Below, piece after piece: positions 12,001 to 64,000 of a DNA stretch of 64,000 nucleotides. The translations under genes and the position numbers were made by a program. The DNA is taken from contig OZ017756.1 in the NCBI GenBank assembly GCA_963969365.1, positions 1,984,001-2,048,000 of the forward strand, written 5' to 3'. Within the stretch, counting starts at the first letter, position 1. Every line of letters starts with the position of its first letter. The notes below the pieces were generated by a model, which was given only the letters and a program-made list of their open reading frames with translations, searched no databases and was not told where the DNA came from. The DNA comes from Asterochloris sp. CNOR1. Its lineage: Eukaryota; Chlorophyta; Trebouxiophyceae; Trebouxiales; Trebouxiaceae.

Positions 12001-15000
12001 GGCTGCCAGCAGACTACTTTGGCTTGGCCAGTGCCGAGTGAGACAGCAACTGACGGACAGCACATGGTGCCTGCACACTGTTATGTGCTCAGGTGACTTT
12101 GTGCTGGTCCTGGGCAGACCTAAATGACCAACTGACCTTCTGCACAATGCGGTCAGCATCCCAGTCCTGGATGGCCAGATTCTTGTCTCTGGCCAGGCGG
12201 GCCAGGATGATTCCCAGCCCCTCTGCCACCTCGCTGAGCAGCTGCTGTGTGTTGTCAGGGTGCAGATAGTTGATCAGGGTTTGGACGAGGTCAGGGAAGG
12301 CTGCATCTGGGAAGAGCACAATAGCCTGGCTGTAGAAGAGGGCTGCAGGGGCACACAACTTTGGAGAGCTGCTGTCTGGTGACAGCACAAGCGCGTTGCA
12401 CAATCAAGAGGGCTGCATGCGTAGCAGAAAGCACAGGTCGGCTCAACAATGGGTCCAGAACTCTACCTCCCATCAAGCAGCTTCATGACTACACAGGGCA
12501 CCTCTGCACAAATGAGAGGCTCAGTTTGGTGCCCAAGCACGCTACTTGTTGCAAGCCCCACCTGCACCAAGCAGCTTCAATATCATGCTGCACTTGGCTA
12601 GCACTTCTGCACTGAGCACGTGGGTGTCCCATGCAAGCCATTCAGGAAAATGCAACCCCCAAGAGCAAGCTTGATGGCCATGCCTGGCATTGAGTAGGCT
12701 GAAAGGTGCCTGGCCCTTGCTGCACACCCCTCTGCATGAAGCAGCTTGACATTCAGGCCGGGCCCACCTGCATTGAGCAGCTTCACGCCCATGCTGCGCT
12801 TGGCCAGCACCCCTCGCTTCTCCTTGGCGGTGGCCCCCTTGACAAGCGGCTCCTTTATCAGGCCAGCCACCGGCTGTAAGGGCAGGGGCACGGCGCAGCC
12901 CCAGCGGCTGATTAGCATCTTGAGCAGCGTGAAGTTGTTGCGAGCGACTGGGCCCTCTGGGTGGAATGCTGCCTTGATCTGCACCCAGCGCAGCAGGCAC
13001 TCACATTGTACTGACCTGCATGGTCACTGACCCAAGGCCGCCCTCCTCTACACAGCTCAGTTGCAATGGCCATAGGCACACGAGGGTTTCAGTCTCGTTG
13101 AGCAGTGTGGAGTTGGGGCAAGGGACTGCACCCCTAGGGTGAAAGGCTGCCTCAAGCTGCACATCATGCATTCAGGGCTCAGTCTCTTGATCTAGGCCTT
13201 GTAGGCCACCTGTTCAACATCTACGCTCATCACCACAGCCCCTGTTCACCTCAGGCCAATGTAAAGCCACTTGATGCACACAGTGTAGGCACCACGCACT
13301 CAGGTGCTCCCTGTGAAAGCACGGCAGCTGTATGAGCATGCTCAAGCGGGCAAAAGAAGCCTTGAGCAGACAAGCAAGTGCAGCCACTGCTAGTGGCAGC
13401 AGGGGTGTCTGTGTGATGTTGCTGCATTCCATTGGGGCAGCAGTAAGCGGAGGCTGCAGCAGGGGCAGGCCTGCCCCTGCTCCTGCCCAAAGCACAGAAG
13501 GCTGCGCAGAGGCTGACGAGCATGCTGCCTGCCTGCATCTCTCACTGCCAGCAGCGGCGCATTGAGCAAGGCCCACCAGGAAGGAAAGAAAGCCATTGGC
13601 CACAGGCTGCAGCTCCCGAGCAATGGAGCCCCGGCGGTCGGCAGGGAAGGTGGACGGCCACCCCAGGAACATGGTGCAGACGTCCAGCAGCAGGTAGTGC
13701 AGGCCCTCTTTGGCTGGGTCCTCCGTGTCAGCTGTTATGGCTCGGGCCACAGCAGGGAACCACTTCCCTGCGTGCTGGCCAAAGATTGAGGGGCTCGGCA
13801 CCAAGGCAGTGTCCTGCAGCAGGCATAGTCAGCTCAGCAGCCAGTGAACTACCCTGCATGCATGCTGGCCGACGACGCAGTGGCCTGGTACAAGGGCCCC
13901 TGCAGCAGGCAGGGTCAGCCTTTCGATAGCTCAGCAGCTGGGGCATCACACCAAAGTAAAGTGTCACCAGGCAGTGGCTGGGCAAGACGGTGCTGTCAGG
14001 CTCTGCTGCAGCTTGGACTAGCTGAGCTGGTGGCACTGGCAGCTCTGCAGGGTGGAGAGGTGCATATTGTACGGACAACTTTCAGGAAGGGCCAGCGTCT
14101 GCGGCAAAACTGCTGTAGCTGTGCCTATATTGATCTTAAGGACTTTGAAGATGCAGGTCGCAAGCCTGTTGATAGCACAGCCAGCTGGTGCAGCAAACCT
14201 GCTGCGCCTCCGCCTGCTGCCGCTCAACATGCCTGCGGTCCACATGCACGACTGCCTTGACCAGGAACAAGCGCACGACTCGCGGCACCGCCTCCTGGTC
14301 CGCGCCACTGCCCACACTGGCGCTGGCCACAGTCCTGTGCAGGTGCTCCATCCAGGAGGGCATGCTGCCAGGCTTCCCAGGCTGCTTGGCTGCCAGCTTC
14401 TCAATGAGCTGGACCAGGGGCAGCATGACCTGATGCTGGTCCAGCCAGTCATCCTCAACAGACAGGGAGTCGCCGGCAGCAGCAGGCAGCTCCAGGCCAG
14501 CCAAGGGGTCCTGCAGTGGCCAAGACACTTCAACCTCAAAACTGCATGCAGCAGCAGGCAGCTCCAGGCCAGTCAAGGGGTCCTGCAATACCTGCAGAGA
14601 GATGCATGCTCAATGTCTGGTGACACACTCCGGCTTGGCTGCCGCCACAATCTATGCTTGTGGATGTGACGGCAGTGAGCAGTCCAGGCCTGACCCAAGC
14701 CCGGTGGCCTGCCACTGGCCACCGAATCCTTTTAGATGGCGATGTCAGCTCTAAAAGCCACCAGGCTGCCACGAACAGTGTGTTGCTACTGACAGCAGCA
14801 TCAAGTTTCACCTGCCAGGTTGCAGCCTGGGTCATCTCCAGAGACTGCTGGTACAGGTTTGGTCTCGCGGCACGCTCCAGCGCCGGCTTCTCTGACAACA
14901 GATCATCCCCTGCAGGGAGGCATTGCATGAGGCAGCCCAGCTTGGTTAACAAGATTAGCACCTTGTACTACTCGTGCTACCTTCATGCCATGCTGTTGCA

Positions 15001-21000: not shown

Positions 21001-24000
21001 CCTTGGCACTCAGGCGGCACGTAGTCTTCTCGCAGCCAAAGAAGGCGCATCTTGAGGATCCCAGGCTGCTGGACGTGCAGCTGGCAACCTGGTCCAGGAA
21101 AAGCTGCAGGCTGGCTGGCAGCAGCAGGCTGCTGCCTGCCTGACGTGGCATGTGTTGCAGATCCTTTGGAGCTACAATGGATTGTCGGCAGGCCCAGGCA
21201 GACCAGGCCACACCTACCTCTAGGGCCTGCACGTGAAGAGGCTATTGTCAGGTGGGCTGGCAGAGTCAGGGCTGCAGGCACACAGAGCAGCATATGCAGG
21301 AGCTGAAAACCCGATAGTGTGAGGAAACTAGCAGTCAGGGCTGGCAGCCAATGATGAGGAAACCCAACTTCCTCTGCCAAGCCACCTTTGACAGGTCTGC
21401 CGCTGTGAGGCAGGCCCAGCAATGCTCCCAGGTAGGACATGACTGTCATCATGCCACCTTACTTTGTGCATGTGCATGTTCACTCTTAACAACTTGTGCG
21501 GCAATACCCTTTGTCAAAGCAATGTGTGCTTGTGGAGGCACACCTGCAGCCAGCCTTGCAGCTTGAGAATGGATGCCTGCTGTGGAAGCGCGGGGACTTG
21601 CGTGAACTCCTGGATCAAGTCTGCTGCCGATCTGCCCGCGCCTGTAACCTGCTCCACCCACAGCTTGACAGGGGCAGGACCTCCTGGCATAATAAAAGCC
21701 AAACTACTTAACTCCTCAAATTGTCACTGCAGGCTGCCAAGGGGGTTCAAAGGCTGCTCATGGATGACTACTGTGGCGGCTGAAAATGGCCATACACTCA
21801 ATGATGTTCACAGGCCCTTTGTGCAATATTTTGATGCGTGTGAACCTGTGTATTCACCTGCAGCATCTTGCCTCACTGAAAGTGACAGCTCTATGCTTGC
21901 CTCAATGCGTTAATCTGCAGACATCGTGAACTGACCTGGAGTGGCCTCGTCTGCTATTTCCAAGGCCGCCACGTGCTCCAGCAGCCACATGCATACCTGC
22001 TGACAGTAGGGTTCTGGAAGGGCTGCCTGCTGCCACAGCCACCTCAAAAGGCCTGCAAGTAGAGCCTCTTAGTGCAGCGCAGTGCCTTGCAAGGTCCTCA
22101 GAAGCTGATGTCAAGAGAGCATCAGCACTTCTTGGAACATGCTTTGATCGGGAAGGAGCAAGTTTCAACATGTTTAGAGAGGGGAGCAGCACAGTGTTCC
22201 AGCTTTGAGATCTGTTGGCCTACAGTTCACAGGCAGCAGGGATCCCCACCTGACAGGGTACGGAATCTGCGCCGTGTGCTGCTGTCCTCGTGCAGCCTCA
22301 TGACCCAGGCCCGCGTCTCCCCTGGACCCCTGTGAGCCCCCTTCAGCAGTGCCTGGAGGTCAACACAGACAGACGTCCTGTTGCAGGCTTGAAGGCGGCT
22401 CTGTCTCTCAGAGAGCTCTTGCGGAGCACAGCTTGAGGGCTTGCCAAAGCATGTAATAGGTAGGACTAATCTGTGCCCAATGGCATGGCAGCACTGCTTC
22501 AGCTGGATACAACTGCAAGGCTGCCCCGCATTCGTACACTACATGCTGTGTCACAGCAAGCTGCATGAAGTGCCAGCAGCCAGGCTGGGATTGCTCATTG
22601 AGGCTGCAGACAGCCGCCATTGACTGGCCTTGATGGCACCCAAAGCTGCTGTTCTGGTGCCTGTGCCTTCCACGTCGTGCTCAGCCAGCCGCAGCGCCGT
22701 CACACAGCAGGCCAGCGCCTCCAGGTAGAACTCGTCTGCCAGCCCCTCATCCTTAGTCAAAACACCGGCGCAGCGCGCCATGGCTTCTGCTGCCCCGTAC
22801 CTACACAGCATTTGAGGCCAGGTGGGCACCCTCTGCAAGATTCAGTGGCAGGGCAGTGGCTGCTTCAGGGCAAAGCGGGGGCATATGAGTCTTGTGCCAG
22901 CGCCAGCCATGGGTCCATAAGCCATGATACCACTGTGCATCTTTGATAAATCTGGACAATGCACAAATGACAGTACAAGCGCAGTCATGAGCCAGGTCAC
23001 CTTAGTACCTGCAGCACCTGCAGCACTGTGACACTCAGCAATGCAGGCGGGCTGTAAGCCTCAGCCCAGAAGCAGTCACTGCTTGAAAGGCCCAGGGGGC
23101 TCCAGCAGGGCCCGAACATCAAGCTCAAAGAGTTGATTGCAGCAAGTAAACGGTCTGCATACTGGCCAGGTTGTCTGTGACAATCAGCAGTGACAAGAGA
23201 AGGGCCGCTGTGGGACCAGCTCCTGAGCACTCACCGCTTGAAGGGCTCGGGGTGCAACAGCCGCTCAAATAGCCGCCGCATCAGGGCTGCAGCATTCAGC
23301 TGATCTGCATGGTGGCCAGCGCCGCCCTTGCCTGCATCACAGCACCTGTTTCAGGGCACTGCAAGCACACGACCGCACTCTGCCATAGCCGTTTGGAAGC
23401 AGAACAGCATAAATGCTGGCACAGCTGTGCGCTGTGCAATGCTGCCGAGGGGAAGCATGCCTTAAAGCAACTCCTCCCCAGCCATCCAGTTGTATGGCAG
23501 CGCAAGGGTCAGGCGCCCACCTGAGCTTGTGCCCAACTTCTTGACTGGTTGGTGCTTCTGGGACCACACAAGGAAGTCGCAGGCAGCTGCGGCGCAGAGC
23601 TCCCTGAGCGCGCCATTCTCATTGTTTGTCAGCCCATCCATGATGGCACCTAGCATGGTCATAGTCTCAGCGCTCTCCCTGCAGGCGTCATGATGTTGTG
23701 ACTGTCAACACAGGCCTACACTGCTGAGATTGTTGTCCCTACTTGAACGCACATGCTAAGCATCTCTCAACCCCTTTGCATGTGTTCGTGGTTGTCAGCA
23801 TGCTCATGTAGGGCAGCGGGAGAGGCTCGACATCACTCAAAATCGTTCAACATGGTTTCTACATCCAGTCTAGCAGAGCAGCAATGTTGAAAAGGAGGTC
23901 ATGATCTCTTTTTGCACTTGTGCAGCTTGCAGACCTTAGCACGCAGCATGTGCACCTTACCTTCTGGCAGCCTTGGTCAGCCAGTGCACTAGCGACATGA

Positions 24001-27000
24001 CAAGGGGACCAAACAGCTGCTTGGAGACAAGCTCTGCAGAAGACGCCAGACGCAGCAGGGTGGGATACAGTTGCGCCAGGATGTTGTGGAACCTGCAGCA
24101 ACCACAGAGAGCAACCATTGCTGCTGAAAGAACCATTTTGGTGGAGTCAGCACAAGTCAGTACGGCCTGCAGGCCAGTCAGGCGTCATGCGACATGAAGG
24201 CGCCCCCAAGAATCGAGACAGAGGAAACTTGCGGAGCCTGCAGCAGCCACACAAAGCACTCAGGCATTGTTTGTGCAGGTGTGTCGTGTAGAAGTGGCCG
24301 CCAGATGAACTAAGGCACGTGGCCAGCACAAGTTGCACTTCCCTTTTGCAGCCACATAGGGCCACTCAGCTTGGGGTTCTTCATCGCCCCTTCAGATGAT
24401 GTCAGGGCTATGGTTGCCTGCTGACAGGGGCGTGTGAGGGCTGCATGTGCCACTGGCATGCAAGCAGAAGCTGCAGGCAGGGTAGTGTTGCTCCGGACAG
24501 GGCGCACTTGGTGGGGGCAGACTTGAAGTCCTCCTCATCCTTTCCGAGGGGCCGTTTGGCATTGATGCCTGCAGCCAGGCGCCCCACTGTGAGATGCTCT
24601 TCTCATGGACAGCGGGTAAGCAGCCCCAGTAGCTTGCTGACATTGCGCAGATGATGCACATGACACGGCGAGGTGCCCGCCGCCACAGCCCATTACCATG
24701 GCAAGTCTTTCTGATCAAACAGCTGTGACTGGGAGCAGATGGCGCAGAGGCACAGCGGCTGCCTGACCAATGCCAGCTGCCAGCAGGAGAGACAGAAAGC
24801 GAAGAGGTTGCATGCGGCCAAGATGTGCCCAGCTGCACGCTTTTTGTAAAGTGGTGGATGTAAGCAGATGATGCAGAATGCAATGCAACATTTGGCTCAC
24901 CAACGATCCACAACGTCACTGCGTGCAGAAACTCGTTTGCAGCCACTCTGGTGGCTCGGTCCGAGTGCTGTTCTGCCAGGTATGCTGCCTGCATCATGCA
25001 GGCAAGCAAAGATACAGACGCTCCTGATTACACATCGTTTGACCCTCACAGCAAGGCCATGTCTGCTTTCCACCAGAGTGCAAGACCGGCCGACTGGAGG
25101 GTCGGTGCAGCCCTTGATGTCAGGAATCAGGCTAAAGGCCACCTGAGAAGCTCACAACCCAGCCATCAAAGGCCTACCCGTCTTTTTGGATGCCACTCTT
25201 CCCAAACATAGCCTGTCAGAGCACACACTCGGAGTTACGCACCGCTGACAACACAGGATGCCATAGAGAGGAGGCACACAGCCTGGAGCTCACTCTGGCG
25301 GCACACTGACCAGCCCAAAGCTTGGCTTCAGAGTAGTTAGACTGCGATTCCACCACAAAGGCTGAAGCTCTCGAGGGATACTGGCTAGCCCAGACTGTGC
25401 TTCGAATGTCAGCAGAATAGACCTCTGCAGGCCAAGGCAGATGCTCACCCTGGGCAACACACAGTCCAGCCACAGAGTGGCCTCCTGGTCTCCAGGGAAC
25501 GGGACGCTGATGCCCAGCTTGTCCTCAGGGTCCCATCTGGCCACAATGTCAGGGGCAGCATGTGGCACAGCCTGCTGTAACCCTGCTGGGGGGGAGACCA
25601 GCACCTCCGCCGCACCGCCCATGCGCCCCAGCCAGGCCTGGATGCGCGGCTGCAGTGCGCACAGACCCTGCATGGCAAAGCTGGGCACTGTCAACATCTG
25701 TGCTCCTGCCTGTGCGGCGCCTTGCCAGGCAGCAGCCAGGTCTAGCACAGGTCTGCACCCCTTGCAACGCCCATTTGAACCTGCTAGGCGCTGGTGCCAA
25801 GCTTCTGTGCAGGGGCCCTGCATGGGGAAGCAGAACACAGCACATTGAAGCCATGCATGTGGCGCCCTGCCAGGGCAACAGCCAGGCTGTTGGCAGAGCG
25901 GCAGCTCCTGCGTTCCCCATGCCCTGGCCAGGCCTTGATGCAGGGCTGTGATGTGAGCAGGTTTTGCAGAGGCAGTCAAGAGCATCGATCAACACTGACT
26001 CAGGCAGCACATTGCCCGTCAGCACAGCACCTCTGCAGTTCATGCACTGCAGCCAGGCGCGACTGTGGAAATGTATGTATGTGTGCACCCCTGAAGGGGC
26101 ACCAGCACATCTATCAGCGCTGCTGACTGATGGTAAGAGGCTGCAATGTGTGCCGGCGTTGCAAAGACAGGTGCAGCTGTGCAGCACCAGCCCATGCCAA
26201 GAAACACCCATCAGTTTTGCCCAACTGCCTCAAGACACGTGCCGCAGCAGCAGATGTACAGCCAGGGCGCACCCTTGTGCCACACCTTCAGAAAGAAGGG
26301 TCTTGCCGCGGCTCTCTGCATGGATCAAATTTAATTAAATTGTGACATGGTGTGCATCCTTTGCACCTGTGACCTGTCTCTCTACTTATACTGCCATCCA
26401 GCCTCCAGTCGACATACACAGTCTGCTGCAGACACTAAGCATGCGGACTACCACCTCATGCTGGGCTGAGCAGCATGCACATCTGCCAAAGGACACACCT
26501 GCATCTTGTCTGTGTGCCTCTGCTGCAGGCTGATCTCCTGCTCCTGCAGCGTTCTGTTGTACTCTTCCTTGGCTGCCTTTGCAGCCTCAACAGCATCCTC
26601 ATCTGCCTGCGGCTCCCCTGCACCTGCAGTGGGCATGCGCTTTCGTAAAACACAAAGGGGAGGGTTTGTGCCTCTGATGATATGTACCTGCAGTGGAGGC
26701 TCCTCCCAGCTCTGCCTCAGCAGCATACCCCCGATCACCCCGTGGCTCCCTGAGCCTTTGTGAGCCTGCATTGATTGAGAAGGAGGCAGCAGTTGCGCCC
26801 CCTGTCAGCGGGCAGCCAAGGCAGACACACACCCGGAATCCCCTGCGCCTGCAGCAGGTGCATGAATTTGGAGCCTTGGCCACAGTGAGGCAGCACTATT
26901 GCCTCCCCTGTGTGTAATTTAAAGGCAGGCAATGGCAGCATGCGCAGCACCTCTGGCACCCCTCCGCCTGCAGCAGGCAATGGCAGTGCAGTGAAGTGTT

Positions 27001-30000
27001 AGAAGGACCTCTGGCTGCCCTGCCCATGCAGCAAAAATGCGCTTTGTGAGACACATCCAGGGAATGCAGCCAGTGCCACTGAAGATGTGCCTGCAGTAGA
27101 GCTGCTGCTATCTTTGAACCCCTCAGGATGGGGCAACCCCTTGAGTTCCCCAAGCATGCAGTGATTGTTGCAGCGTTCAACAGCAGAAGCAGGCAGCGCT
27201 CTCATGAGGTCTGCACAGCGCCGCCGCATGCAGCTGCTGCATGAGAGCCAGGCAGTGCACACCTTGATTGGAGCGATGCTGGCAAGGTGGGCTCACCTTC
27301 AGTGGTCTCCTCTGCAGTGCCGTCCCGGCCAGCACTCCAATCTGTCACCTCAGACAAGAAGGGTTCCAGCGCAGGAATGATGGCGGGCGCCAACTCCTGC
27401 AGCACTGTCTGGCACCTATGAGGACACATGCTGCAGTTTGCAAGATCATGCAGACGTATGCTGGTGCAAATGCATCGAGCACAGAGCAAGCAGTCAGCAC
27501 AGGATATGTCCTGACGCCCATCAGCATGATGACAAGGCAGTGTCATGACAAGGCAGTGTCACCTTCAGGGCATCTGGCTGCTGCTGTTCCCACTGCTCCA
27601 GAGCACTCACAGTCACCTCAGCCAGTGCTGGCAGCTGCAGGCCCAGCTGCAGGCCCAGCTGGAGGGGCTCCCTCAGACTCTGCAGCGGCACCTGAGGGTC
27701 AGCAAGCTGCTGTTTGGCACACTCCCTCAGACTCTGCAGTGGCACTTCAGGTTCAGCAAGCTGTCTCAGACTCTGCAGCGGCACTTGAGGTTCAGCAAGC
27801 TGCTGATCAGCACGCTCCCTCAGACTCTGCAGTTGCACTTGAGGTTCAGCAAGCTGACAACTCAGGGGCTTCAAGCGTGATGGCTGCACAGGGTAGGCAG
27901 CATGTGCTGGACGTCCTGCATGCTAAAGAGCCCCAGCAGCCAAGCCAGAGGCTTCCAAGACAGCAGAGACTGCACAGCACAGGGTCTGTTTGACTGGGAA
28001 CGGTGCCTGTGGGCAGTAAGCTCTGCAATCCTGTGCTGGCATGCCAGAAGCAGCAGCTCAATGTGAGCGCAGACCGCGACTGCATCAACAGTAGCATGTG
28101 GCAAGCAGCTGCAGTTCAGTACTGGTTGATGGCTTCAAGAGCATCAGAGGTAGCTTCGAAATAGGTGTATAACGCACCTTGGCACTGCCATCCTTGCATG
28201 CTTGCACCTCAGCGGAAGAAAGGGCGGGCCTGTAGGAGCGCACAGGTGCAGGCACATACCTGTGCTGGCATGACTGCTGCAGGCGCAGCTAGCAGAAGCT
28301 CCAGACATGCCTCCAGAAGGTCATCTGTGTACCGCCGGCATGCTACCTTCGCATCTTGCAGGAAGTCTGACAGCACTGTGAGCAGGGTGTGCAGGGCCTG
28401 CTCTGCGTCTGTGCCCAGGCCCTCAGCTTTGCCTGCAGGTCGAGCAACAAAATCAAATACACAACCAGTCCTCCTGCTGTTACAGCCACAACCATGTATT
28501 TGTCCCACTGACACAACTGCAGCGTAGAGGGAGCCGCATCTTGCACGCAGCACAGGGCGCAGGCTGCGGAAGTCTTCTGTCTGCTGCCATGCGCACAGCA
28601 GCTGCCAGCAGATGAGAGGCTGCAGAGTGGGTGCGGTGCCTGACCTGAAAGCTGCAGCACGCCTCCCTCTGCTGCCATGCGCACTGCAGCCGCCAGCATC
28701 CGATAACAGCCGCTGAGCATGCGTCTGCGCTCTGTGGCAGCCACCAGTCCTATGCACGTCTGAGGTGCCCACTCCCTGCAGGCTACATGAGTTCTAGAAG
28801 CAGTGGGTACATCCTGAATTCCTGTGTTGGTAAAGGGAAAGAGCCATACAACTGCCACAGCCACTGCAGCAGCAGCAGCTGCAACACAAGAGCTACATGT
28901 ATGATTGAGCGCATGCTGATTCTGGCTGCATTGTGGTGTCTTGTCATCCAGTCAATAACAGAAGGTGGGGACAGTCCCCGCTTGGCCGCTTCACCTTACC
29001 TGAACAGGTCTGCACCGCAGGCAGGCAGCAGGGCAGCAGTGAACCCTGATAGGTTGAGGAAGACTTGCATGTCTGCCATGCTGCGAGGTTGCACAATCAC
29101 TCCAGCAGCTGCAGCATCAGTCTGTGTCTCAAGATTCGGCGCCTGCAGGCAATGGTCAAAGTCTCCTCTGCATGACCCTTTGCATGGTGGAGCATTGGAT
29201 CATGGATGCTGCATATTGCAGCCCAGCCACTTGAGCTCAGGAGCGCTTATGCCAGGCTGTGTCCCACTTGCGCCAGGCAACTTCTGTATATGTCCAGTAT
29301 ACATACCACACTGCAGCTTGATAGCTGTCACAGGAGGCCTCAAGGCAGGTGCCAGCAACGACCAGGGGAGCAGCAGCAGGGCAGGATGTGCTGTGCACAA
29401 CTCGTAGCCACTCCTGTGCTGCCAGATACCTCAGTGTGTCTGGGTGTGCCTCATTGTGGGACAGGCAGCACTGCCCACCTGATTGGGATCTGCCACCTGC
29501 ACAAGCTGCAGGTCCAACTGCTCGATGGTGTCCAGCACACTCTGCAGTATGGATCCATAGACAGCCCCCTGCAGCGCCTGCATGCCGCTGCCTGCCAGCT
29601 CAGCAGCGCTGCTGGCCTCAGCATGTATGCCTTGGCTGCTGCCGGCAGCAACTCCCCGCTCAGTGTCAAGGTTGCTGCTGGTAGCACCAGGCGTTGCAGG
29701 TGTGGCAGGCCCAGCAGCTGCCGTGCTGGCTGCATCCTGTAGCAGCACCAGCCACAAGGGCAGAAATATGCGCCATGCAGGTATCTCCTCATCAGCTGTG
29801 GCTGCGGCTGCAACATCACCTGCATACAATGGTCTGATCGTGAACCATTGCTATGGCCATAATTCAGAGTCAACCGTGGGACGCGGCATGCACATGAGGT
29901 GGGGAGCTACAACATCCTGAGAGCCACAAGAGAGGGCCCCACCTTTGAGGAGAAAGACATGGCGCAAGCAGGGTACGACAGGCTGAAACCATAGGCTTGG

Positions 30001-48400: not shown

Positions 48401-51400
48401 CAGCTTGAGGCCAACAGTTGCTCTCCAGTTAGGGACCTCTGCCAGCGCACTGCCAACAGGTGCCGCGCTGCTGTCTCGCATCAGGGTGGCCCGAGTGTCT
48501 GCCAGTCTGTTGGCGGTGCAGAAGTGCAGTCTGACCTCATAGCAGCACAAAACAATGCTCCTGCCTTCGACACTTTGTGTCTGGATGGCATGCTGCATGT
48601 ATATGGTGTTTTGGGTGCGCTTCACTTTGCGAGGCAGCATTGCACAAGCGGAGGTGTCCTTACTGCTGACAAGCCAGGTATGCTGTTGCTGGAGCACATG
48701 GGCCTCATTCCTCAGGTCGAGCAGTATGCCGTGCCTTGAGTGCAGGTGGCGTTCAGTGCAGACGGACATCCCACAAAGGCTCTGGAGGGTTTCTGCAAGA
48801 AGAACGGCATCACTCCTGAAGATGTTTTCAGGCAGGCGGATACCAAGGGCGTGGAGTATGTCTGGGCCACAGTGCGCCAGCCCGGGCAACCTGCTGCACA
48901 AGTGGGTACTGTACAGGGCAGACTGTAGGCGGTGCTGTCAGCGCATACAGCTTGCAGAGCATGTGTCATGTGCAGAGCTAGGCCTTGGCTGGTGTCTGGG
49001 TCCACCAGCGAGCAGGGCTACCTGTACTGCACCTTCTTTTGGCTGCTGGATAACTTGTCCATGCATGAGCAGTATGGCCATTAGAATGAGCTGCCTGTGT
49101 GGTGCTCGCTGTCCACTGTGCTGGCCACAAAAGACAGCACCGTAGTCCAGCTTCCTCTGCCCTGCCCGCAAAAGAGAAGCAGGCATGGTCTGCCATGTCT
49201 GCAGGTGCTCACAGAGGAGCTGCCGGCTCTGATAGCTGGCCTGAGCTTCAAGCGCAGCATGCGGTGGAATGGCAAGGCTGCCTTCAGCCGCCCGCTGCGG
49301 TGGCTGCTGGCCCTGCATGGCAGCACTGCGCTTCCCTTTGTCTATGCGGGGCTGCGAGCTGGAGGCAGGACGCGGCTGCTGCGCACAACCACCGTGACTC
49401 ACAATGAGTGCCAGGTGTGCAGCTGTGAAGGCTCGACGCGCATTTCGTTATGTGACTTGAAGCTGTGCACTCCAGCTCAGGAAGCTTTTGGACTCCCATG
49501 TCTGGTTGTGAGTTCTGGGCCAGGGCTTTGGGCAGTGTGTCGTCATGGCACTGCAAGCACCTCACACAGCTAACTGTGACTGGCAGGCGGTTTCTGAAGT
49601 CATGGCGAGGTGCAGCAACCAATGAAGCCCTTCTAATTCTCTGATCATGGGCAGAGCAATAGCCTGCCATTGAAAGCTGGCAGGGCAAAGTGACAATCTT
49701 TGACCTGCCAATGCAGGGGTTTCCCGCCAGTGAGTACCAGGGCAGGTTGTGGCAGGGTGCTGGCATCCTCCTCGATGGCCAGCAGAGACAAGAGCAGATC
49801 TGGGAAGCTGTACTGGCAGAGGCGAGGCAGGTTTCAGGCACTGTGCCTGACAACTGGAGGCAGGATCTGGTGCCAGAGGTGGCCAATCTTGTTGAGGCGC
49901 CAGCCGTCCTCCGTGGCAATTTTGATCCCAAGTTCTTGGACCTTCCACAGTGAGCTTGCTTACCTCTCTTGCCTTCAGAAAGGCAGCTCCACCATCCATC
50001 TGCCTGCCCATGCAGCAGAGCAGCGGGCATCTGCCTGCAGGCAGATGGCTTCACTGCCAAGGGGCATCTGCTCTGTGCTACTTGTGTGAAACGAACGCTG
50101 TGTACCTGCTGCCTCTGAGCTGCAGAGCGGCACCAGCCATCCAGCAACAGCTGCTGTGTCTTGAGTCGGCACTTTTGCTGCTGCTGATTTTCCAGTCTGC
50201 ATGGGGCTGTCATTCAGTCTGCATGATCTCGAGACAATCTTGCAGTCTGCAACCGGCATTGACCCGCAGCCTTGCTGCAGGGAGGTGCTGGTCATGGTCA
50301 TGCGCAAACACCAGCGGTACTTTCCTGTCTTTGCTGAGGGTTCCAACAACCAGCTACTCCCGCACTTCATCACTGTGGCCAATTCCCCTGTGGATCCTAA
50401 TGTCATCCAGGTCAGTCTATGCTGCATCTTGTGCTTGCAGCAGTAGCCAAACACATCTCTTGCCCATTTCACCACTATCCAGGCCGGCCAGTCATGCTTG
50501 CGCAGCTAATCAAGACTGCTGCCCCATGTAGTACACCCTTGCATCAGACACGCTGAACCACTTGAACACAAACTCAGTCTGGCCATCAGGGATCCCTGGT
50601 CTGCTTGCCTGTCTTCTGCTTGGGGTGGGACATGTCATACTGACCTTACCATGCAGAGCAAGTTTTGCTTGACTGAATAATGCACATGCCTGTCTCCAGG
50701 CTGGTAATGAGGCAGTGCTGCGAGCACGCTTTGATGATGCTGCCTTCTTCTTTGGTGAGGACTTGAAGCAGCCCCTGGAGGACTTCAGGCCCCTGCTCAA
50801 GGGAACCACCTTCCAGCGAGACCTGGGCTCTCTCCTCAGCAAGAGTGTGAGCATCCCAGCCTGACCAGAACCATGCCAGCTCTGCTCAAAGTTGCCTGGC
50901 CAATGCTGTGCAAGAATGCATGGCTGCTGCTGTGGTCACTGCTGCAGGAAGTCAATACTGTACTCTTATGCACATGCACCTGCACAGCTATTGAGCAGGA
51001 TCCGGACTCTCCTGCAGCAGCAGTGTGAGCGTACAAACCAAAAGCGCCCATGCACCAGCAGCACATTGCTTTGCTCTCACCTCACCAGCTGCATGCTCTG
51101 CCTGCAGGAGTGGGCTGGACCACCCAGGCAGCTAAGCTGGATCAGTTGCTTGCCTAAGAGCCTCACCCAGCTGCTGCATCCTGTCTGCATGAAGCTTACC
51201 TCCTGCATGGCCCGCCTGCAGGAGAGGGTGGAGCAGCTGGTGCCCCAGCTGGCAGAGCTTGCTCTGCCAAAGGCTGCCAAAATGGCTCAGGCAGCAGCCC
51301 GCCTTGCAATGAATGATCTAGCCACCTCCACTGTGACAGAAATGACTGCCCTGGCAGGGGTGTTTGGCAGAATTTTGGCCCAGCGCCAGGGGCAGGTGAG

Positions 51401-54080
51401 CTGGTGGAGAACATGGTGACAGATGCAATGTCAAACACACAGCATGCACCTCTTTTGATCTCCGAAAGGAAGCAGATGCGAGTGTGGCAGCATCTACAGT
51501 TGTGCACCCCAGGCTACCTCGGCAATATGTGCAGAGCCATGACCAACTGCTGCAAGAGTTGCACGCCTTCTCTACAGGATGCAACTTTGGCCAAGGCCTT
51601 TCATGAGGGCAACCTGCCTCGCCCTCATCTTCAAACAATGCCTGCAGGATGCAGCTGTGGCAGATGCCATCTATGAGAGCACCTTGCCCCGCAGCGGCAG
51701 CTCAGCTGTTGCCACATCCCCAGCCGGCATTCTGGTCTCCCTCTCTGACAAACTGGACAGCCTAGTGGGCCTCATAGCCGCAGGTGGGGAAGCAGCACCA
51801 TTGCCTGTGCATGCAAGACTAGAGCATGGCATCTGGATCAACAGATCTCAGGACAAGCAGTGAGTGCTACAGCACAGCGTATGGACAGCACTGCGCTACT
51901 TGAGAACCACAGTGCTCTGCCTGCCACAATTTCTACCCTCTGTGCAGCTGCCTGGATCAGCCAGTGCAATGTACTCCAGCCACCCCCCTGCACAGCATAG
52001 GGCTTACCGCAATAGTAGTCTCTGCTCTTGCAGGCTGCGCTCCAACAGCCAGCACAGACCAGTATGGCGTCCGTCGCATTGCATACGGGCTGTTAGAGAC
52101 CCTGCTGGCGAGCTCAGTGTCCTTGGATCTGCCGTCAGCTGTGCAGGCCGCATCTCAGCTGCAGCCGATCCCTGTGTCTGAGCAGCAGCAGCAACAGGTT
52201 GGTGCATTTGGTTGCCTGCCAAGACAAGCTGCTGCTGGCAACCAACTGCCAAGCTTCAGCATCCTGCAGCAGCTTGGACTACTAAGCTCTGTCAGCATGT
52301 CAACCTCACTGGCTTGACAAAGCGGTGGCTTGAGAATGCGTCGCATGCTCAGCCTGCCTGGTTCTGGGTTAGACACCAGCCACACAAGGCGCAAGATGCA
52401 CCAGGTGCCCCTGCCATGCGTGCAGGTGCTGGACTTTGCCAGTCGCCGGCTGGAGCAGCTGTTGCTGGACAGGGGCTACCAGATTGAGGCTGTCCGAGCA
52501 GTGATGCAGGAGTCTTACAGGGACCCTGCCAGGGTCCAAGCAGCAGTGCAGCAGCTGCAGGTGAGCCTGGCCAATGCAGCTAGCATGCTCAACGCTTTGG
52601 CTTTGAAAGGCAGACCACACTAGTTGGCAGGCAACCTCTGCTGTGCAACTGACAGACACGCCCGCTTGCCCTGTGTGGGCTGCAATCGATCACCTCTCTG
52701 TGAGAGACGAAACCTCAGGCATCACACTGCACAGTACTCGCCTTGAATGCTCTGCTGAGCGAGCCGCATTGCTCCTCTGCAGCCTGACTGGACCAGGGCA
52801 TGTCTGACATGCTGCTCAGCCTTGAATCTTAAATATGCTGACCAGCTTCGTATGCTCCGCCCTGCAGCAAAAGCAGAGCAAAAAGGCCACTGGTGGGGCT
52901 TGTTGTGCTCAGCCTCAGACCTCATGCTAGCCTCCTTGCCTTGCACTCTGCAGGGTGAGCTAAGCGAGGGGCCCGCTGGCCTTCTTCTCAGCCTCAGACC
53001 TCATGCTATGCTGAGCAACCTCGCATGCTGCGCCGCAGGGCCGCCAGCTGCGCAGTTGGCACCTTGTTGCTGTCCTTAGCCTCTGATCGCATGCTGAGCA
53101 GCTTCTCAGAATGTCTCCTGCAGGGCAAGCTGAGCAGCTGTGCACAGTTGTGCAGGGCGGCGTGTGCACAGCTTGTGTGCTGCCAAAGTATGAGACCATG
53201 TGCCGCTTCGAGCTGAGGCATTGCCATTGCTGTGCAGGACGAGCTTAGAAAGGGGGAGTCTGGCCTGCTGCACCGTGTCATGACTGCATTCTCGCGGCCC
53301 ACACGCATCGTGCGCGGCAAGGATGTGACTTCCTCCTGGCAGGTCAGGGAGGACCTCTTTGAGCTAGAGGAGGAGTCTCAGCTGCTGGCAGCCTTCCAGA
53401 GGGTGCAGGGGCAGGTGAGGGCATGGTGGGGTTAGACACAGGCGCATGTTGGCGACAGAGGTTGCCTGTGTGCCTGTCCAGTCGAGTGTGCAGGAACAGG
53501 TGAGGGGCAGAGAAGATTTGTCTGGAATAGGAGTCTCAGCTGTAGACAGCTCACCATAGGTTTCAGGAGCAGGTGAGGACAGCGTAGTGCTTTGACTGCA
53601 GGTTCTGCACCACTGGCATGTCCAGGGGCAGGTGTTGGGCGAGCTTGACTGGGACTGCAGTGGTGCAGAGACGTGTGCAGACGCCAGTATGCCTGTGCCT
53701 CTTCTCATCAGCTGCTGCATGCCGCAAAGGGTTGCAGGGCCCTCCAGCTCATTGCTCAGCTCTTTTCAAGCTTGGGGAGTGCTTGCATTGGCATCAGCCA
53801 ACACTGAACACCATTGCAGCAGTGAGATGCCGCTGCAATGCAGCCATGTCTTGCCTGCCCAACACCGCTCATGTGTGCCATGCAGGTGCAGCAGTCTCAC
53901 GGCATTTCAGACTTCCTCAGCTGTTGTGAGGATCTTGTGGAACCTTTGAACGCCTATTTTGATAAGGTCTTTGTCATGACCGAGGACGAAGCAATGCGTC
54001 AAAGCAGGTTGGCACTTCTCCGCGATGTTGCCAGTCTTCCCTCTGGCATTCTGAGTTTAGCTGAGCTTCCTGGCTTTTGA
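45409..54080 (+). CDS. EDD1/GlyRS: Organellar glycyl-tRNA synthetase, fused alpha-beta (bacterial type)
   Basis: Charges plastid and/or mitochondrial tRNA-Gly. Eighteen exons keep frame to 1081 aa, near the plant EDD1 length: 45409-45723, 45897-46157, 46409-46570, 46753-46899, 47207-47369, 47769-47958, 48220-48370, 48746-48901, 49205-49414, 49717-49949, 50281-50410, 50700-50846, 51222-51395, 51648-51783, 52034-52197, 52426-52560, 53238-53414, 53886-54080. The N-terminus is Arg/Gln-rich with few acidic residues (MQKAMRLRV..., [10 protein letters not shown]), a likely transit peptide. The class II catalytic alpha part includes [50 protein letters not shown] and [14 protein letters not shown]. 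The beta part includes [43 protein letters not shown] and [20 protein letters not shown]. Exon 4 ends at a GC donor (CCAG/GCAAGT). Confidence 0.96.
50998..51130. repeat. Echoes of GlyRS exon 12 end and exon 13 start
   Basis: GACTCTCCTGCAGCAGCAGT with GTGAGC at about 51009-51032 resembles the exon 12 end at 50846 (TCTCTCCTCAGCAAGAGT/GTGAGC). CTGCAG/GAGTGGGCTGGACCACC at about 51104 resembles the true exon 13 start at 51222 (CTGCAG/GAGAGGGTGGAGCAGC). Both lie inside intron 12. Confidence 0.6.
52940..53150. repeat. Repeated acceptor-plus-exon-start units in GlyRS intron 16
   Basis: The true exon 17 starts GACGAGCTTAGAAAGGGGGA after TGTGCAG (53238). Copies start at about 52953 (CTGCAG/GGTGAGCTAAGCGAGGGG, frame [11 protein letters not shown] beside the real [11 protein letters not shown]) and 53128 (CTGCAG/GGCAAGCTGAGCAGC). 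A decayed copy lies near 53036. A phrase like TCAGCCTCAGACCTCATGCT recurs between units at a spacing of about 80-100 bp. Confidence 0.75.
53490..53650. repeat. Donor-side echoes of GlyRS exon 17
   Basis: Exon 17 ends GTGCAGGGGCAG/GTGAGG at 53414. Similar 5' splice contexts recur in the intron: GTGCAGGAACAG/GTGAGG (about 53492-53509), TTCAGGAGCAG/GTGAGG (about 53561-53578) and GTCCAGGGGCAG/GTGTTG (about 53619-53636). A conserved GGGGCAG or GAGCAG core precedes each. Confidence 0.65.
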
Positions 54081-54247
54081 ACCCCTTGATACAGTTCTGG
54101 CCCCCCCTTCCCTGCGCTTTTCACGGAAGCATCCTGCCAATTCATTGTAGCCCATCTCCACTCAGCGTGCACACCATATTCATGAGACATTCATCTGAAT
54201 TTCAGCAACCAGTAGGCTACAGACATGTCCATTTCCACATGTCCTTT
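54081..54247. other. Convergent spacer between GlyRS and the DUF6816-like gene
   Basis: 167 bp holding both 3' ends. No TGTAA poly(A) motif is seen on either strand, and no further coding signal. Confidence 0.5.
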
Positions 54248-56124: not shown

Positions 56125-56193
56125 TCTCTCAGAAGCAGTCGAGGGGAAAGGATTGCACTTACTTTCTTCTGAGGATGAGAAAGCCTCGGTGAT
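56125..56193. promoter_or_regulatory. 69-bp divergent spacer
   Basis: The start codons of the DUF6816-like gene (minus, 56124) and the AH_C gene (plus, 56194) are only 69 bp apart. The 5' UTRs and promoters must overlap each other or the neighbour's first exon. No core-promoter motif stands out. Confidence 0.5.
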
Positions 56194-58543: not shown

Positions 58544-58837
58544 GTGTTGCTGAAGTCTCATGCACCCATGAGGCCACCAGTCCTGAGTCTGCTGAATGCA
58601 CGTGTGCCCCTTGACTGCTGACCCGCCTCTGCCTCTGACCACCCAGCAACTCCTCGAGTGCAGCAGTGACCTCCTTGCTTTTAATTTGACCTGGCTTGTA
58701 ATGCTGCCTGTCAGCAATGTCACTCATGAAATTGCGCTACTGTGGTTTGGCGCTTCCTGCGATATTCGCTGGATGTGAATTAATTCAAGACAGACGCTTC
58801 TGCTATCAAAAATGGCAGCCAGTGATGAGCTCCAGTG
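58544..58837. other. Convergent spacer between AH_C gene and IFT88
   Basis: 294 bp between two stop codons facing each other. Apart from a plus-strand TGTAA (listed separately) nothing coding or repetitive is seen. Confidence 0.5.
58697..58701 (+). terminator. Possible TGTAA poly(A) signal of the AH_C gene
   Basis: TGTAA, the usual green-algal polyadenylation signal, lies about 155 bases after the AH_C stop codon on the coding strand. A five-base match alone is weak evidence. Confidence 0.4.
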
Positions 58838-61800
58838 CTACAGCGGCAGCAGCTCATCTCCCAGCTCGTCAGTGCCCCACTCATCTTCCTCCTTGCCCAC
58901 TGTCAGCTGAGCCTTTTTGGCCTGCAGGGGGCAGCTCATCAGCTGTGACAGCAAGGCACAGCAGGTGGGTGACAAGACCACTCTCAGCTCCTCAGATTCC
59001 CTGTGCCATGTGGCCTGCAGAGGCCAGGTTTCATTAGCTGCTTAATCAGCTTGTCTGCGCAGGAGGTGCCTTGAAACAGTTCAGCTCAGAACTGCACGTC
59101 AAAGAGGCAACTTATACAAGCCAAGTGGACACTCTGACTTCTAAGGAAGACCCGGTGGAGGCCCCAGTGTAGCAGGCTACATCCACAGCTGCAAGGGCTG
59201 TGCCTGCACAGCTTGTTCACGAGACCGGCATAGCGGCAGCTCAGGGACCAGCGGAACCAGCACAAACTTGATGCAGCCGCAGCAAAGGCTTACTCTGGAC
59301 GCAGGCATGCAGAACGCTGGTTCAACTGCCTCAGGAACAGTAGTGACAAGCCCGTCTGAGCTGAGCTTGGAGCGACGGGTGGGGGGAAGAGTCTGGTCCA
59401 GGGCACTGGGCTGCACCTGCAACGCACGATGCTGTCAGTCAGGCTTTTTATGCAGTGCAGATTGTGCAAAGCAGGCGGCCTGCGCAGCCCTGTCCAGTCA
59501 GGCACCCTCTGCTGCAAGTTCACATGCGTCACAGCAGCATCATTGTCATTCTGCACTGCACCCCGACATCAGGCAGATGCAAACATCTAGCCCTTGCCTG
59601 CTACAATTGTACACTTGTCACTGAGCTTCCACCCTGGTCTGTGCTACAAGCCAAGAGGGGCTGCTGCAACACCATGCCTGCCCTGTGATAAGATGACCTC
59701 AGGCAGCATGGAGTGCACGTCTGCTATACAAACAACACACACCAGCATCACCACCGCTCTATGCTGCAGGCCCAGTTGGGCAAATGCAGCATCAGGCCTG
59801 CACCGCTGCAGAGAGACATGCATCACTGCAGTGCACCCTGCTCTGTGCTGCAGGCTGGAATGGGCCACTGCAGCACCACCCCTGTGCTGCAATGCAGGTG
59901 GACATCAGGCACTGCAGCATCAAGCTGTCCCCTGCTGCAGATGCGCATGCATCATTGCAGCCTCATGCCTGCTCTGCGTGTGATGCACACCTTCTGCTCT
60001 GCCTGCTGCAGGCGCTCTGCCTTGCGCATGCGCTCAGAGTAGAGCTGCACATCCTCCTTCATGCCTGCAGTGCAGGGAACAAACAGAGGGGCATGAAGCG
60101 TTTGGGGCCCTGCACAAAGGGGCAGCCCAGCCTCCACCTTGGCAGCGGACTCACAACAGCTGCACAGCATTGTGCAGCGACACCCTCGAGTGCTGCTCTT
60201 GTTCTTTCCCACATGCAGCACAGGCTAAGGTGTTGCAGGGGTTGCCAGACCAGCAAGCTCCCCAAGCACAAGCTGCTCTCTGTCCTGCGACGCGACAGCT
60301 CAGTCTGTCAGGACTGCCTGCACTACGAATGCTGCACCAACCTGACTCTGACAGGATCTGCATGTATCTGCAGGCCACCCAAGAGGGAGGCCAGGCTTAG
60401 GCAAGCTCACCCAGGTCTGAGCAGATGTGTATGAGGTAGCGCAGGCACTCCACATTCAGAGGATGGCCTGCATGGATGCGGCGATACTCTGCCAGAGCCT
60501 GCAGGCAGGCTCCAGGACTCAGTCGCTAAGGCAGCAGATGACATATGTGTGTCAAGGCCTGCTAGCCCCCAGCCAACTCCTGCAACACTGAGGGATGCTG
60601 CTGCTGCAGGCTGTCTGCTTGAAGTCAAGAATTAGGCTGCAGCACTGGCTCACGAGCACCAAGCATCATTCACTGGCATTGCTGTGCGTTTGCTGCAGGT
60701 GTTTGAGTAGCTTGTGAGTGGCAGACAGCACCTGGCCCACAACTGACACAGGAGAACTGAAGGAGTCCCTCATGTCCTGATGATTGCAGCAGTCTCTTAT
60801 CTGCTGCTGGAGGCTGCAGATGCTGGCAGACAGGTGATTGGACGTGCTTACCTGCTGGTAATTGCCAATGCGCCTATAGCAGCTGGCCACCATGAGCTGC
60901 CATTTGACCTCATGGGGTTGCACCCTGGCAGCCAGGCTGAAGTAAGGCACCGCACCCTCGTATACCTGCAGCTCAGAGCAGGGTCTTGGCTGTGCTGCAG
61001 CCATGAAAGCGTCAGGGCACTGGCCCCTTGAAACACCACAGGGCCACATGCTTGCACTGGCTGCGTGCCTGAGTGTCACCTCCGTTTTGCGAACATTCTT
61101 GATTTACTGCAGCTTGCTAGACTTGCTGTACAGCCTTACAGCCCTGCCAATGCAGCCTTGCCAGGGCGGGCACACAGGCTGGCGGAGCATGAGCTCTGCC
61201 CTTTGCAGGTGGTTGCGCACCTCATTCTTCACATGGAAGGCCCCCAGCCAGGAGATGACTTCCATGTCCACCGGGTACACCCTGTGAGACTCCTGGTGGT
61301 AGCGCAGGGCCTCGGCCTCATCATCCAGCCTGCACCAGAGGTGACAGCCCCAAGGCTCACTCACTGGGGGGATAAGGGCAGGGTGCAAGCCAGTGACAGT
61401 CCTGTTGGCATTGCACTGCCCGTGCAGCTGACTGGCCACCTCCAGGGACACATGTCTGGGGGTGACCTTGCTGAGGGGTTCTGGGCTTGTGCCACCCACA
61501 ACCTCGCCTTGTCTGGCACACAGGACAGTGCTGAGCCGACAGGGCTCTGAGGGAGGCAGCTGAGAGGTGCAGGGCAGGTTGCGACCCATAATGGTCTTAT
61601 CTAGCCTGCAGGACAGTGCTGAGGTGACAGGGCTCAGACATAGCTGCAAAGTTTGAAGGGCAGGATGCCGCCTGGGCATGTCTCTTTCGGGCAGCAGGTG
61701 GGCCCAACTTGGGTGGCTTTGGCCTGAGCCATGGGGCCATTGCTGCAGAGAGCATGACACAGCTTGCTGGAAAACAAGAATCCTTGAGCCATCCAAAATC

Positions 61801-64000
61801 CGCTTGTATGGCTGAACATCTCGGGCATGCTAGCTGACCTGCTAATGTTGTGGCTCTGAGACGGCCAGCGTTAAGCAACCAGGAGTCCCCTTGCACAGTG
61901 CTGGGATGCTGACGCCATGCTGGCGAGGCTGCTGACAAGCGCTGAGGCCACAACTGAGCTAAGATGTCTGACAGAGCTGCACTGCTGTCTGTTGGCGCTG
62001 CTTCCTCTGGGAAGGTATTCACACTTGAGACGGCACCAGACACACTCTGGACCCGGGCTGTGCATTGAGGTTTGCCTCACTTGGCATCCAGACCAGAAGA
62101 CGCGCCAACAACCTTCTGCAGGATCTGGCCAGGACAATGTTGACGATAGATGGCCCTGCCACATCAGCACCATCTTGATCCCGCATGCAGTCTGCACCAC
62201 TGTGCCCAGCCTGGGCCCCCTTCCCCCTCACACATGCCTTGCTTGGCGTGCCGCCCTCAGCCATCACAGCACAGGCAACACTCCCCCCCCCCAGGCATGC
62301 CTCTCACTTGGCGTGCAGCGCCCCCAGCCGCGCCAGCACCCCCGGGTCCTGGGGGAGGTGGGAGTGCAGGCGTTCAAACCACTCTGTGGCTGCCTTGGGC
62401 TCCCCCAAGAGATCCAGCACAGCGCCGATCTGCAGGCAGGCAGCTACCCATGATTTGGATCTGAGCAGAGGCAATGGCTCTGCATACTGATGCCAGAGGC
62501 TGCAGCAGTGGTGCACTGCAGCGCAGCGCTGTGCTGGACAGGGGAGCAGGCACATGACCACCTATTCATTTCAGGCTGAGCTTCAGGAACTCATGCCCTG
62601 CAGGCAGCCCCTGCTCAGATATCTCCCCAGCACACTCCTTAGAGCTCCCTGCAACACAGCAGGGCTTGCCCCGCAGTGCGCCGTCCCCTTCTGCTGAGCA
62701 GGAGCTCCCAGACTTTTCTTTCCAGGATCGGCATGGTCCCCAGGAGCCAGCATTGAACAGCGCGTCCTGCCAGCTCTGGGCCGCCAGCTTCTGACAGAGC
62801 TGCCAGCTTCTAAACCCTAAACCCTAACCCACCTGCCACATGACTTCCGTGTTCTCAGGCGCCAGGGCCGCCAGCTTCTGGAAGTCGGCCAGGGCGCTGC
62901 CCAGGTCGCCCGTCTGCCTGTAGACCAGGCCCAGATTGTACAGAGCCTCCACACAGTCAGCTTCGTTCTGGAGGGCCTCGCTGAACAGGGCACGGGCGCC
63001 CTCCCAGTCCTGGGCAGCTGCGGCCACGCTGCCCTGCATGTGTGCTGTAGGTGTCTGTTGATGTGTAGTCTGTGGGGTCAGGAGTGGCAAACAGCAAGTG
63101 CACAGGCCAGTGCTGGGTAGACCACGGACGGGCCTGCAGGTGTATTTTCAGCTCAACAGTCAGCCACATTCTGGAGGGGCATGGCTGAAGAGTGTGACCT
63201 GTAACTCCTGAGCAGCTGCGGCCACGCTCTCACAAGCCAGACATACAGCCAGTGACATGCCAGTCCTGGGCGGTCACGGCGTGTTATTGCGTGCGCGAAC
63301 AATGTTTTGCCACCTGCACGAACACTGTGAAGGTAGTCCTGGGCGGGCATGGCATTACTATAACAGAGCCAACCCATTGTGTTGCTCCTGAGGAGGTACA
63401 TTCCGTCAACCAGTTGGGATTTCGTGGAGGCCTGACTGTCCATGGCTGCACAACCATGGCCTTGAGGGCTGCGGCTCCTTCAAGAGTGCAGGGGCAACCT
63501 TGCAGTCCTGGGCAGCTGTGGCCGCGCTGTCCTGCGGGGCAGCACAGCTGGATGGCAGACCCCGCCCTGTGGGTGTGTTAATGCGACCCCCACCTTGTTG
63601 ACAAGGGCCTGTGCGCTGTAGCGGTCTGTGGCCACCGCCAGCTGGGCATAGCGATCTGCAGCAGCCTGCTCCCCCTCTAGGTGGTGCAAGAAGGACAGGT
63701 TGGTGGCTGCGCGGGCCTTCAGGTGGTGCTCCTTGCGCTCAAACTCCTGCATTGTGCAGGGACAAGGTCAGGCTGGTGCCACAATTGGGATGCAACTGAG
63801 GGCAGCTGTGCAGGTCTGTGGGCAGTTCTCTTTGTGCTCAGAGGCCTGCAGCAGGCACAGGAAGTGAGTGCGCGACATCTCCTCAGAGTCCAGTGCAGCA
63901 GGCGCTCTTCCCAGAGGCAGGCATTGCACAGGTTCTCCTTCACGCAAAGTGAATGTAGAAGCACACTGTGCTGGCAGCGGGCATGGTGCAGAGGGAGCTG
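58838..64000 (-). CDS. IFT88: Intraflagellar transport protein IFT88, 5' end outside window
   Basis: A TPR subunit of the IFT-B complex needed to build cilia. Nine exons join in frame to the last 355 residues: 63594-63746, 62833-63033, 62308-62429, 61221-61329, 60852-60965, 60411-60498, 59991-60064, 59294-59416, 58838-58921. TPR repeats read ARAATNLSFLHHLEGEQAAA, NEADCVEALYNLGLVYRQTG, IGAVLDLLGEPKAATEWFER, SHRVYPVDMEVISWLGAFHV, HEVKWQLMVASCYRRIGNYQ and GHPLNVECLRYLIHICSDLG. A Lys/Gln-rich helix and the acidic end EEDEWGTDELGDELLPL are typical of IFT88. The match to the Chlamydomonas protein is close throughout the repeats. The stop is at 58838-58840. Bases 63747-64000 look intronic; the N-terminal half lies beyond the window. 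Introns hold exon echoes and a telomere-like tract. Confidence 0.93.
61500..61640. repeat. Intronic echoes near the IFT88 exon starting at 61329
   Basis: GGACAGTGCTGAG(C/G)(C/T)GACAGGGCTC occurs at about 61524 and 61611. The second is preceded by TCTAGCCTGCA, resembling the exon edge CATCCAGCCTGCA at 61323-61333. On the minus strand the copy reads CRLDKT beside the real RLDDEA. Confidence 0.55.
62810..62830. repeat. Interstitial CCCTAAA telomere-type tract at an IFT88 donor
   Basis: About three units of CCCTAAA, the complement of the plant/green-algal TTTAGGG repeat. On the minus strand it begins three bases into the intron: exon end GGCAG, then GTGGG followed by the TTAGGGTTTAGGG run. Just beyond are two short copies of GCCAGCTTCT, a segment also found in the adjacent exon. 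Confidence 0.85.
63200..63536. repeat. Four exon-start echoes in an IFT88 intron
   Basis: The true exon edge at 63033 encodes GSVAAAAQDWEG. Related stretches occur at 63200-63236 (GAGCAGCTGCGGCCACGCT), 63261-63289 (CAGTCCTGGGCGGTCACGG), 63331-63358 (AGTCCTGGGCGGGCATGG) and 63498-63536 (CAGTCCTGGGCAGCTGTGGC). The last keeps an acceptor (CCGCAG) and reads DSAATAAQDC on the minus strand. Confidence 0.75.

Follow-up and report, generated by a model that had tools for sequence, protein, structure and literature searches.

A 64-kb stretch of contig OZ017756.1 from the green alga Asterochloris sp. CNOR1 (GenBank assembly GCA_963969365.1, positions 1,984,001 to 2,048,000; hereafter the window) was examined for exon-edge echoes, that is, decayed copies of the beginning or end of an exon that lie in the adjoining intron. 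All positions are window coordinates, and the genome searched comprised 56.4 Mb in 21 contigs. Four 50-kb stretches from other contigs (C1, C5, C8, and C13) were analyzed together with the window, giving five regions and 264 kb. Genes were modeled using a hidden-Markov gene finder self-trained on these regions, with no annotation used, which returned 49 gene models containing 654 exons and 605 introns (median intron, 224 bp). The trained splice consensus sequences, CAG/GTGAGC for donors and CTGCAG/G for acceptors (junction marked by the slash), have CAGG in common. The window has a GC content of 57%, with CpG and TpA at 0.34 and 0.43 of expectation, respectively. CTGCAG occurs 284 times, compared with ~20 expected from base frequencies, and because only 165 exons were modeled in the window, acceptors alone are insufficient to account for this excess.

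Genes identified in the window encode DNA-PKcs, Rad54, GlyRS, a DUF6816 protein, a protein with an allophanate-hydrolase-like C-terminal domain, and IFT88, and six window models were checked against solved structures or Pfam. The DNA-PKcs gene (340-22781, minus strand) has 52 modeled exons and the Pfam domains CC3, CC5, and FAT (DNAPKcs_CC3 and CC5 lie on parts of the protein other than that encoded by exon 12768-12978); the same gene may also include the models between 23002 and 36022. Rad54 lies near the DNA-PKcs gene, and its model aligned to the solved structure 1z3i with 491 bits. The IFT88 model aligned to solved IFT88 (8bd7) with 330 bits. The GlyRS represents the bacterial alpha-beta type; its beta part aligned to solved GlyRS (7xjy) with 558 bits, and its alpha part was named by eye.

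The original prediction held that introns in at least ten places, in four genes on both strands, carry copies of adjacent exon edges. A uniform rule applied alike to all introns identified 26 edge echoes in the window. These fall in six gene models, with both strands represented: five named genes (DNA-PKcs, Rad54, GlyRS, IFT88, and the allophanate-hydrolase-like gene) and the unnamed model 23002-33753. A separate repeat search supplied three further clear cases outside the rule (53522-53581, 63475-63535, and 12557-12604). The principal features are as follows.

1335-1368, minus strand: acceptor echo in DNA-PKcs intron 1256-1662; exon part 28 nt at 93%.
5383-5415, minus strand: acceptor echo in DNA-PKcs intron 5342-5674; exon part 28 nt at 79%.
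12557-12604, minus strand: copy of 12763-12810, 48 nt at 81%, modeled within a 45-nt exon; candidate echo or true small exon.
12768-12978, minus strand: DNA-PKcs exon of the gene model, starting at 12978; source of the echo at 13098-13162.
13098-13162, minus strand: acceptor echo in DNA-PKcs intron 12979-13576; 65 nt, high-scoring segment pair (HSP) score of 33, exon part 59 nt at 73%.
14548-14587, minus strand: copy of the modeled exon start at 14510; 40 nt at 97%.
27760-27856, minus strand: acceptor echo in the unnamed model 23002-33753; 93-bp tandem unit at 90%.
38676-38876, minus strand: copies of a Rad54 exon edge (acceptor 38628) in intron 38629-39297; 77-bp tandem unit.
41220-41287, minus strand: acceptor echo in Rad54 intron 41098-41685.
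41310-41340, minus strand: donor echo in Rad54 intron 41098-41685.
42730-42770, minus strand: donor echo in Rad54 intron 42491-42816; exon part 31 nt at 87%.
51572-51622, plus strand: acceptor echo in GlyRS intron 51396-51647; exon part 45 nt at 73%.
53522-53581, plus strand: donor echo, copy of the GlyRS exon end 53364-53423; 60 nt at 77%, with CAGGTGAGG kept.
59840-59977, minus strand: acceptor echo in IFT88 intron 59806-59990, inside a local multi-copy stretch.
63475-63535, minus strand: echo of the IFT88 exon start 62977-63037; 61 nt at 79%.

The peptide pair that had been offered as an example is present as the 73% match between the exon starting at 12978 and its echo at 13098-13162. The "VQ" of that peptide is the intronic acceptor GTGCAG translated, the modeled exon beginning at IK. 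The copy at 14548-14587 may instead be a duplication inside a longer exon, as the 72-nt stretch between the two copies appeared by eye to be open and in frame. A 36-bp imperfect palindrome (13452-13487; 89% match to its own reverse complement) lies in the DNA-PKcs intron 12979-13576. Copy numbers of one to four per intron had been proposed; the uniform rule reached at most three, although the repeat search listed families of four to five copies at 59.5 to 61.0 kb.

Some echoes deceived the gene finder, in agreement with the suggestion that they act as decoy exons. An 11-amino-acid exon was called at 63499-63531 within the IFT88 echo, and ~12 residues were added after QRVQG in the GlyRS model at the 53522-53581 echo. 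All of these residues fall in gaps against the solved homologues (8bd7 and a 12-residue gap of the 7xjy alignment, respectively), and both sites are within or beside echoes.

Matching between exon edges and introns was assessed for 392 introns measuring 110 bp or more whose flanking exons were 30 nt or longer, using length-matched other introns as the control. Donor edges matched their own intron in 21/392 cases (5.4%) compared with 0.02% in other introns, and acceptor edges in 24/392 (6.1%) compared with 0.04%, an enrichment of ~150-fold or more over shuffled introns. The signal persisted with the splice motif masked (12/392 for each edge, 3.1% versus 0.01%), and the exon part alone matched the own intron in 13/392 and 15/392 cases. 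Exon stretches 60 to 120 nt from the edge gave 0/392 matches to the own intron, although exons shorter than 120 nt produced blank queries and the true number tested is smaller. Exon-edge echoes in own introns are thus real, and the comparison with shuffled pairs proposed alongside the original prediction came out in its favor.

One explanation for such likeness would be a dispersed repeat or introner family, or merely base composition, and the abundance of CTGCAG in the window suits it. However, besides the near absence of matches in shuffled introns and the persistence after masking, only three pairs of different introns among 384 resembled each other at an E value of 1e-3 or better. Three echo-bearing introns used as queries against the 56.4-Mb genome gave no match outside their own locus, in a search that skips very common words. 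The DNA-PKcs intron 12979-13576 matched only itself and a short inverted stretch within itself, while the Rad54 intron 38629-39297 and the intron holding the IFT88 echo 63475-63535 matched only themselves and their own exon edge. Uniqueness to the locus therefore covers the fetched regions by intron comparisons and three introns genome-wide. For the cases tested, a dispersed family or composition is refuted by the shuffled introns, the motif masking, and the genome-wide searches; as a general account it is extremely improbable.

Echoes form part of a wider excess of local repeats. Ungapped self-matches (score 18) in the five regions were frequent at offsets of 12 to 250 bp, with five in all in the 500- to 16,000-bp bins scanned. 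Gapped matches (score ≥18, offsets of 20 to 820 bp) numbered 205, compared with 13 and 4 in two far-offset controls; they were found in the window (57), C1 (15), C5 (39), C8 (54), and C13 (40). The predicted recurrence of local duplication thus extended to five separate regions, with a weak ungapped signal in C1, where the 15 gapped matches compared with 3 and 0 in the far controls. The 205 pairs share 59 to 100% identity (median, 76%). By the uniform rule, 80 edge echoes were identified in 70 introns, of which 61 had one, 8 had two, and 1 had three: 26 in the window (103 introns), 24 in C8 (76 introns), 15 in C13, 10 in C5, and 5 in C1 (75 introns). This spread is uneven, C1 being low relative to C8 and the window. 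Echoes lie at a median distance of 110 bp from their edge within a gapped search reach of 820 bp, and distances leaving remainders of 0, 1, and 2 on division by three (19, 37, and 24 of 80) gave no preference for multiples of three. Reverse-complement matches (score 18) between exon edges and their own intron were 0/392 for each edge, these being the comparisons in which strand was tested.

The echoes are probably remnants of random short local same-strand duplication, filtered by preservation of the mRNA and by asymmetric decay. Short same-strand local duplications, mostly at offsets of 20 to 300 bp, would arise at many sites in the genome. Those inside exons would alter the protein and mostly be removed, whereas those that are intronic or span one splice site could escape any effect on the mRNA as long as the outer splice site survives, and could drift to fixation, giving a longer intron. 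The intron-side copy would then decay, with selection preserving the exon original, such that exon-derived copies would stay recognizable longer than intron-derived ones and introns would appear as if exon edges had been copied on purpose. The locality and shared orientation of the copies, the uniqueness of three introns, the greater length of introns with matches, and an edge share that the null model attains with no targeting are shown by the data; that slippage or end joining makes the copies, what becomes of them afterwards, and that introns lengthen with time are what we infer.

The copies could instead have been captured from nearby DNA during repair of double-strand breaks rather than by tandem duplication, a difference that concerns the mutational step only and is otherwise compatible with filtered local duplication. 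Many pairs are spaced, 70/205 by more than 100 nt, and such events are known to copy exons with their splice sites in vertebrates (PMC2671141). The vertebrate set, however, includes one opposite-orientation exon copy and has an average distance of ~1.2 kb, neither of which resembles the echoes described here, and the clearest young cases include two abutting pairs (38599 and 27667). Repair-mediated capture is thus possible, though on the unlikely side. Two exon clusters of family-A DNA polymerases were noted, on contigs C7 (~1228500-1230800) and C16 (~2208000-2210700); either may encode polymerase theta, a candidate maker of local duplications.

Another alternative is that splice junctions are themselves copied into the intron by an edge-directed or junction-bounded process, such as RNA-templated repair or breaks at exon-intron junctions. 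Repeat-arm coverage does peak at the exon edge, at 0.14 in the last or first 15 exonic nt compared with ~0.09 to 0.13 in the first 150 nt of the intron and 0.03 to 0.06 at 45 to 105 nt inside exons, and edge queries matched own introns more than intron-centre queries did (7/392, 1.8%). To this could be opposed a neutral simulation in which random duplications were placed in the 309 of 384 introns without an intron-involving match, with offsets drawn from the data and the same detection; duplications were kept if the mRNA was preserved, and the exon copy decayed slowly. The 384 introns contained 43 edge-intron, 21 exon-intron, and 39 intron-intron matches, giving a ratio of exon-involving to intron-only pairs of 64:39, or 1.64. 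Simulated ratios were 1.44 to 1.74 for three parameter sets and, at minimum ages of 0, 0.05, 0.1, 0.15, 0.2, and 0.25 substitutions per site, 1.49, 1.71, 2.02, 2.86, 4.61, and 10.72 (10,033 events). The chance of at least 64/103 exon-involving pairs under the neutral model was ≥0.36 at every age. The observed edge share was near or below the neutral one throughout, and under this model a process aimed at exon edges would therefore not be needed. Donor and acceptor edges were also hit alike (21 and 22 among the 384 introns).

Where the likeness ends offers a second comparison. In 39/80 echoes (0.49), and in 12/18 well-kept ones, it ended within 12 nt of the splice junction. When ages were drawn evenly from zero upward, an initial simulation fell short of this share (0.20 to 0.28), whereas older ages gave 0.49 to 0.69 overall and 0.53 to 0.77 for well-kept echoes, one of the three runs having only 29 detections. 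Across the six minimum ages above, the expected share was 0.28, 0.31, 0.36, 0.43, 0.51, and 0.62, and the median exon-part identity fell from 0.87 to 0.76, compared with 0.75 observed. Averaged over cases, the flanks beyond echo ends retained a likeness close to that expected by chance (mean ranks, 0.54 and 0.55), which would suit a bounded process, although single cases (1256 and 5342, and 47554 of C13) by eye resemble flanks broken by indels. Junction-bounded copying is possible for a part of the echoes, but since old neutral duplications yield the same stops and an equal or larger edge share, direction toward edges is quite unlikely as the general explanation.

Several points weigh against random, filtered duplication. 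Rotating the annotation gave 40.5 edge-intron pairs (standard deviation, 5.5) compared with 74 observed, an excess expected from two ordinary effects: edge-spanning copies, unlike those inside exons, can spare the mRNA, and exon-echo pairs diverge more slowly than intron pairs under selection on the exon. As many as 146/205 pairs are spaced by more than 10 nt, many of them short and of high identity, which a tandem model expects only after decay; the other 59/205 abut to within 10 nt, a count blurred by the age of the pairs and by the score cutoff. Minimum ages of 0 and 0.05 produced too few junction stops (0.28 and 0.31 compared with 39/80; P = 4e-5 and 7e-4), also among well-kept echoes (0.25 and 0.29 expected compared with 12/18), while minimum ages of ≥0.2 over-predicted the exon-involving ratio (4.61 or more compared with 1.64). 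Old ages match the stops and identities, yet over-predict edges 1.7- to 2.8-fold at 0.15 to 0.2. In this model no single age fits everything if all edge-spanning duplications are tolerated. Old duplications of which only ~36 to 57% (about a third to half) of the edge-spanning ones are tolerated would reconcile the values, an assumption added post hoc; the simplest way out would be the loss of many edge-spanning duplications through disturbed splicing, again an added assumption. Finally, the gene models are self-made and include some false small exons, and some are probably merged genes, which probably also explains the low share of modeled intergenic DNA (15.7 of 264 kb); the lichen alga Asterochloris has a reported genome of 56 Mb with ~9 introns per gene and ~26% intergenic DNA (PMC6652019).

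Young duplications seem scarce, identities lying below the even-age prediction; this may reflect fallen activity, instability of fresh repeats, or merging in the assembly.

Introns with a match are longer (median, 385 versus 247 bp), and a match was present in 3% of introns of 90 to 160 bp compared with 48% of those of ≥450 bp. HSPs per kb were 0.52, 0.83, 0.65, 0.99, and 1.54 from the shortest to the longest intron class. The proposed intron enlargement is consistent with this tendency of match density to rise with length. The even-age simulation, in which 39% of 10,033 events were detected, set against the 103 pairs seen in 384 introns, roughly suggests that, as an order of magnitude, an intron undergoes 0.7 duplications in the time taken by 0.6 substitutions per site. 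A splice site was kept (within 2 nt and above the lowest tenth of real sites) in 19/43 donor and 19/37 acceptor echoes (38/80), compared with 3.3% and 2.4% of random intron places, respectively, although part of this excess follows from the detection procedure. A bolder proposal, that local duplication is a chief engine of intron growth in this algal lineage, that a part of it is junction-bounded, and that decoy splice sites shift junctions or add alternative exon ends, is doubtful; if true, intron length and splice-site choice would evolve jointly in this lineage.

Tandem genomic duplication as a route of intron gain was reportedly described by Rogers in 1989. Applied here, introns would be born from duplicated exonic proto-splice-site sequence, and echoes would be the two ends of one duplicated piece. 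The CAGG common to the donor and acceptor consensus suits this model, and in four introns the copy offset equals the intron length. These are only 4/605, however; the two in the window rest on modeled exons of 2 and 6 nt and are artefacts, and the other two are in C8. An offset equal to intron length with both splice sites in the repeat is thus not a general feature, and intron birth is very improbable as the main source of the echoes.

Reading the echoes as filtered local duplications has practical consequences. With the exon as a nearly fixed reference, edge copies that an intron may carry can be dated. They amount to fossils of past local duplications, through which intron growth becomes measurable within one genome. 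Gene prediction in such genomes will yield echo exons, and claims that duplication is directed at splice sites must be measured against the null model.

Short local duplication has been described before. For short insertions in flies and primates, tandem duplication is a main source (PMC2374710), and Thomas et al. (2004) and Messer and Arndt (2007) are cited on short local duplications by PMC2671141 and PMC2374710. The features in common are that copies are local, mostly same-strand, and in pairs, whereas here the sizes are larger, the genome is that of an intron-rich alga, and the copies are decayed exon edges. PMC2374710 also describes reverse-strand templates, of which none were seen between exon edges and their own introns. 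The original prediction knew of no named description; as a process, one is already in print, since Pace et al. (2009) described vertebrate repair-mediated duplications in which captured proximal DNA includes exons with splice sites (PMC2671141). Those copies are likewise closely linked and placed in introns, but here exon edges gave no inverted copies in their own introns and distances are much shorter. In a literature search of open-licence papers by titles and the starts of abstracts, no description of such echoes was found among the matches listed. Introners would be expected to produce similar introns in many genes, unlike the three pairs found here. Intron gain by tandem duplication has been described in several lineages (PMC3443670, citing Hellsten et al. 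2011 and Gao and Lynch 2009), including Drosophila (PMC2891723). It involves the same mutation, made tolerable by the same splice-site similarity, but the copies described here sit in existing introns, with new introns at most a few of 605. The present analysis adds an interpretation in which decayed exon edges document local duplication in an algal genome, together with a null model in which the edge bias by itself would need no special mechanism.

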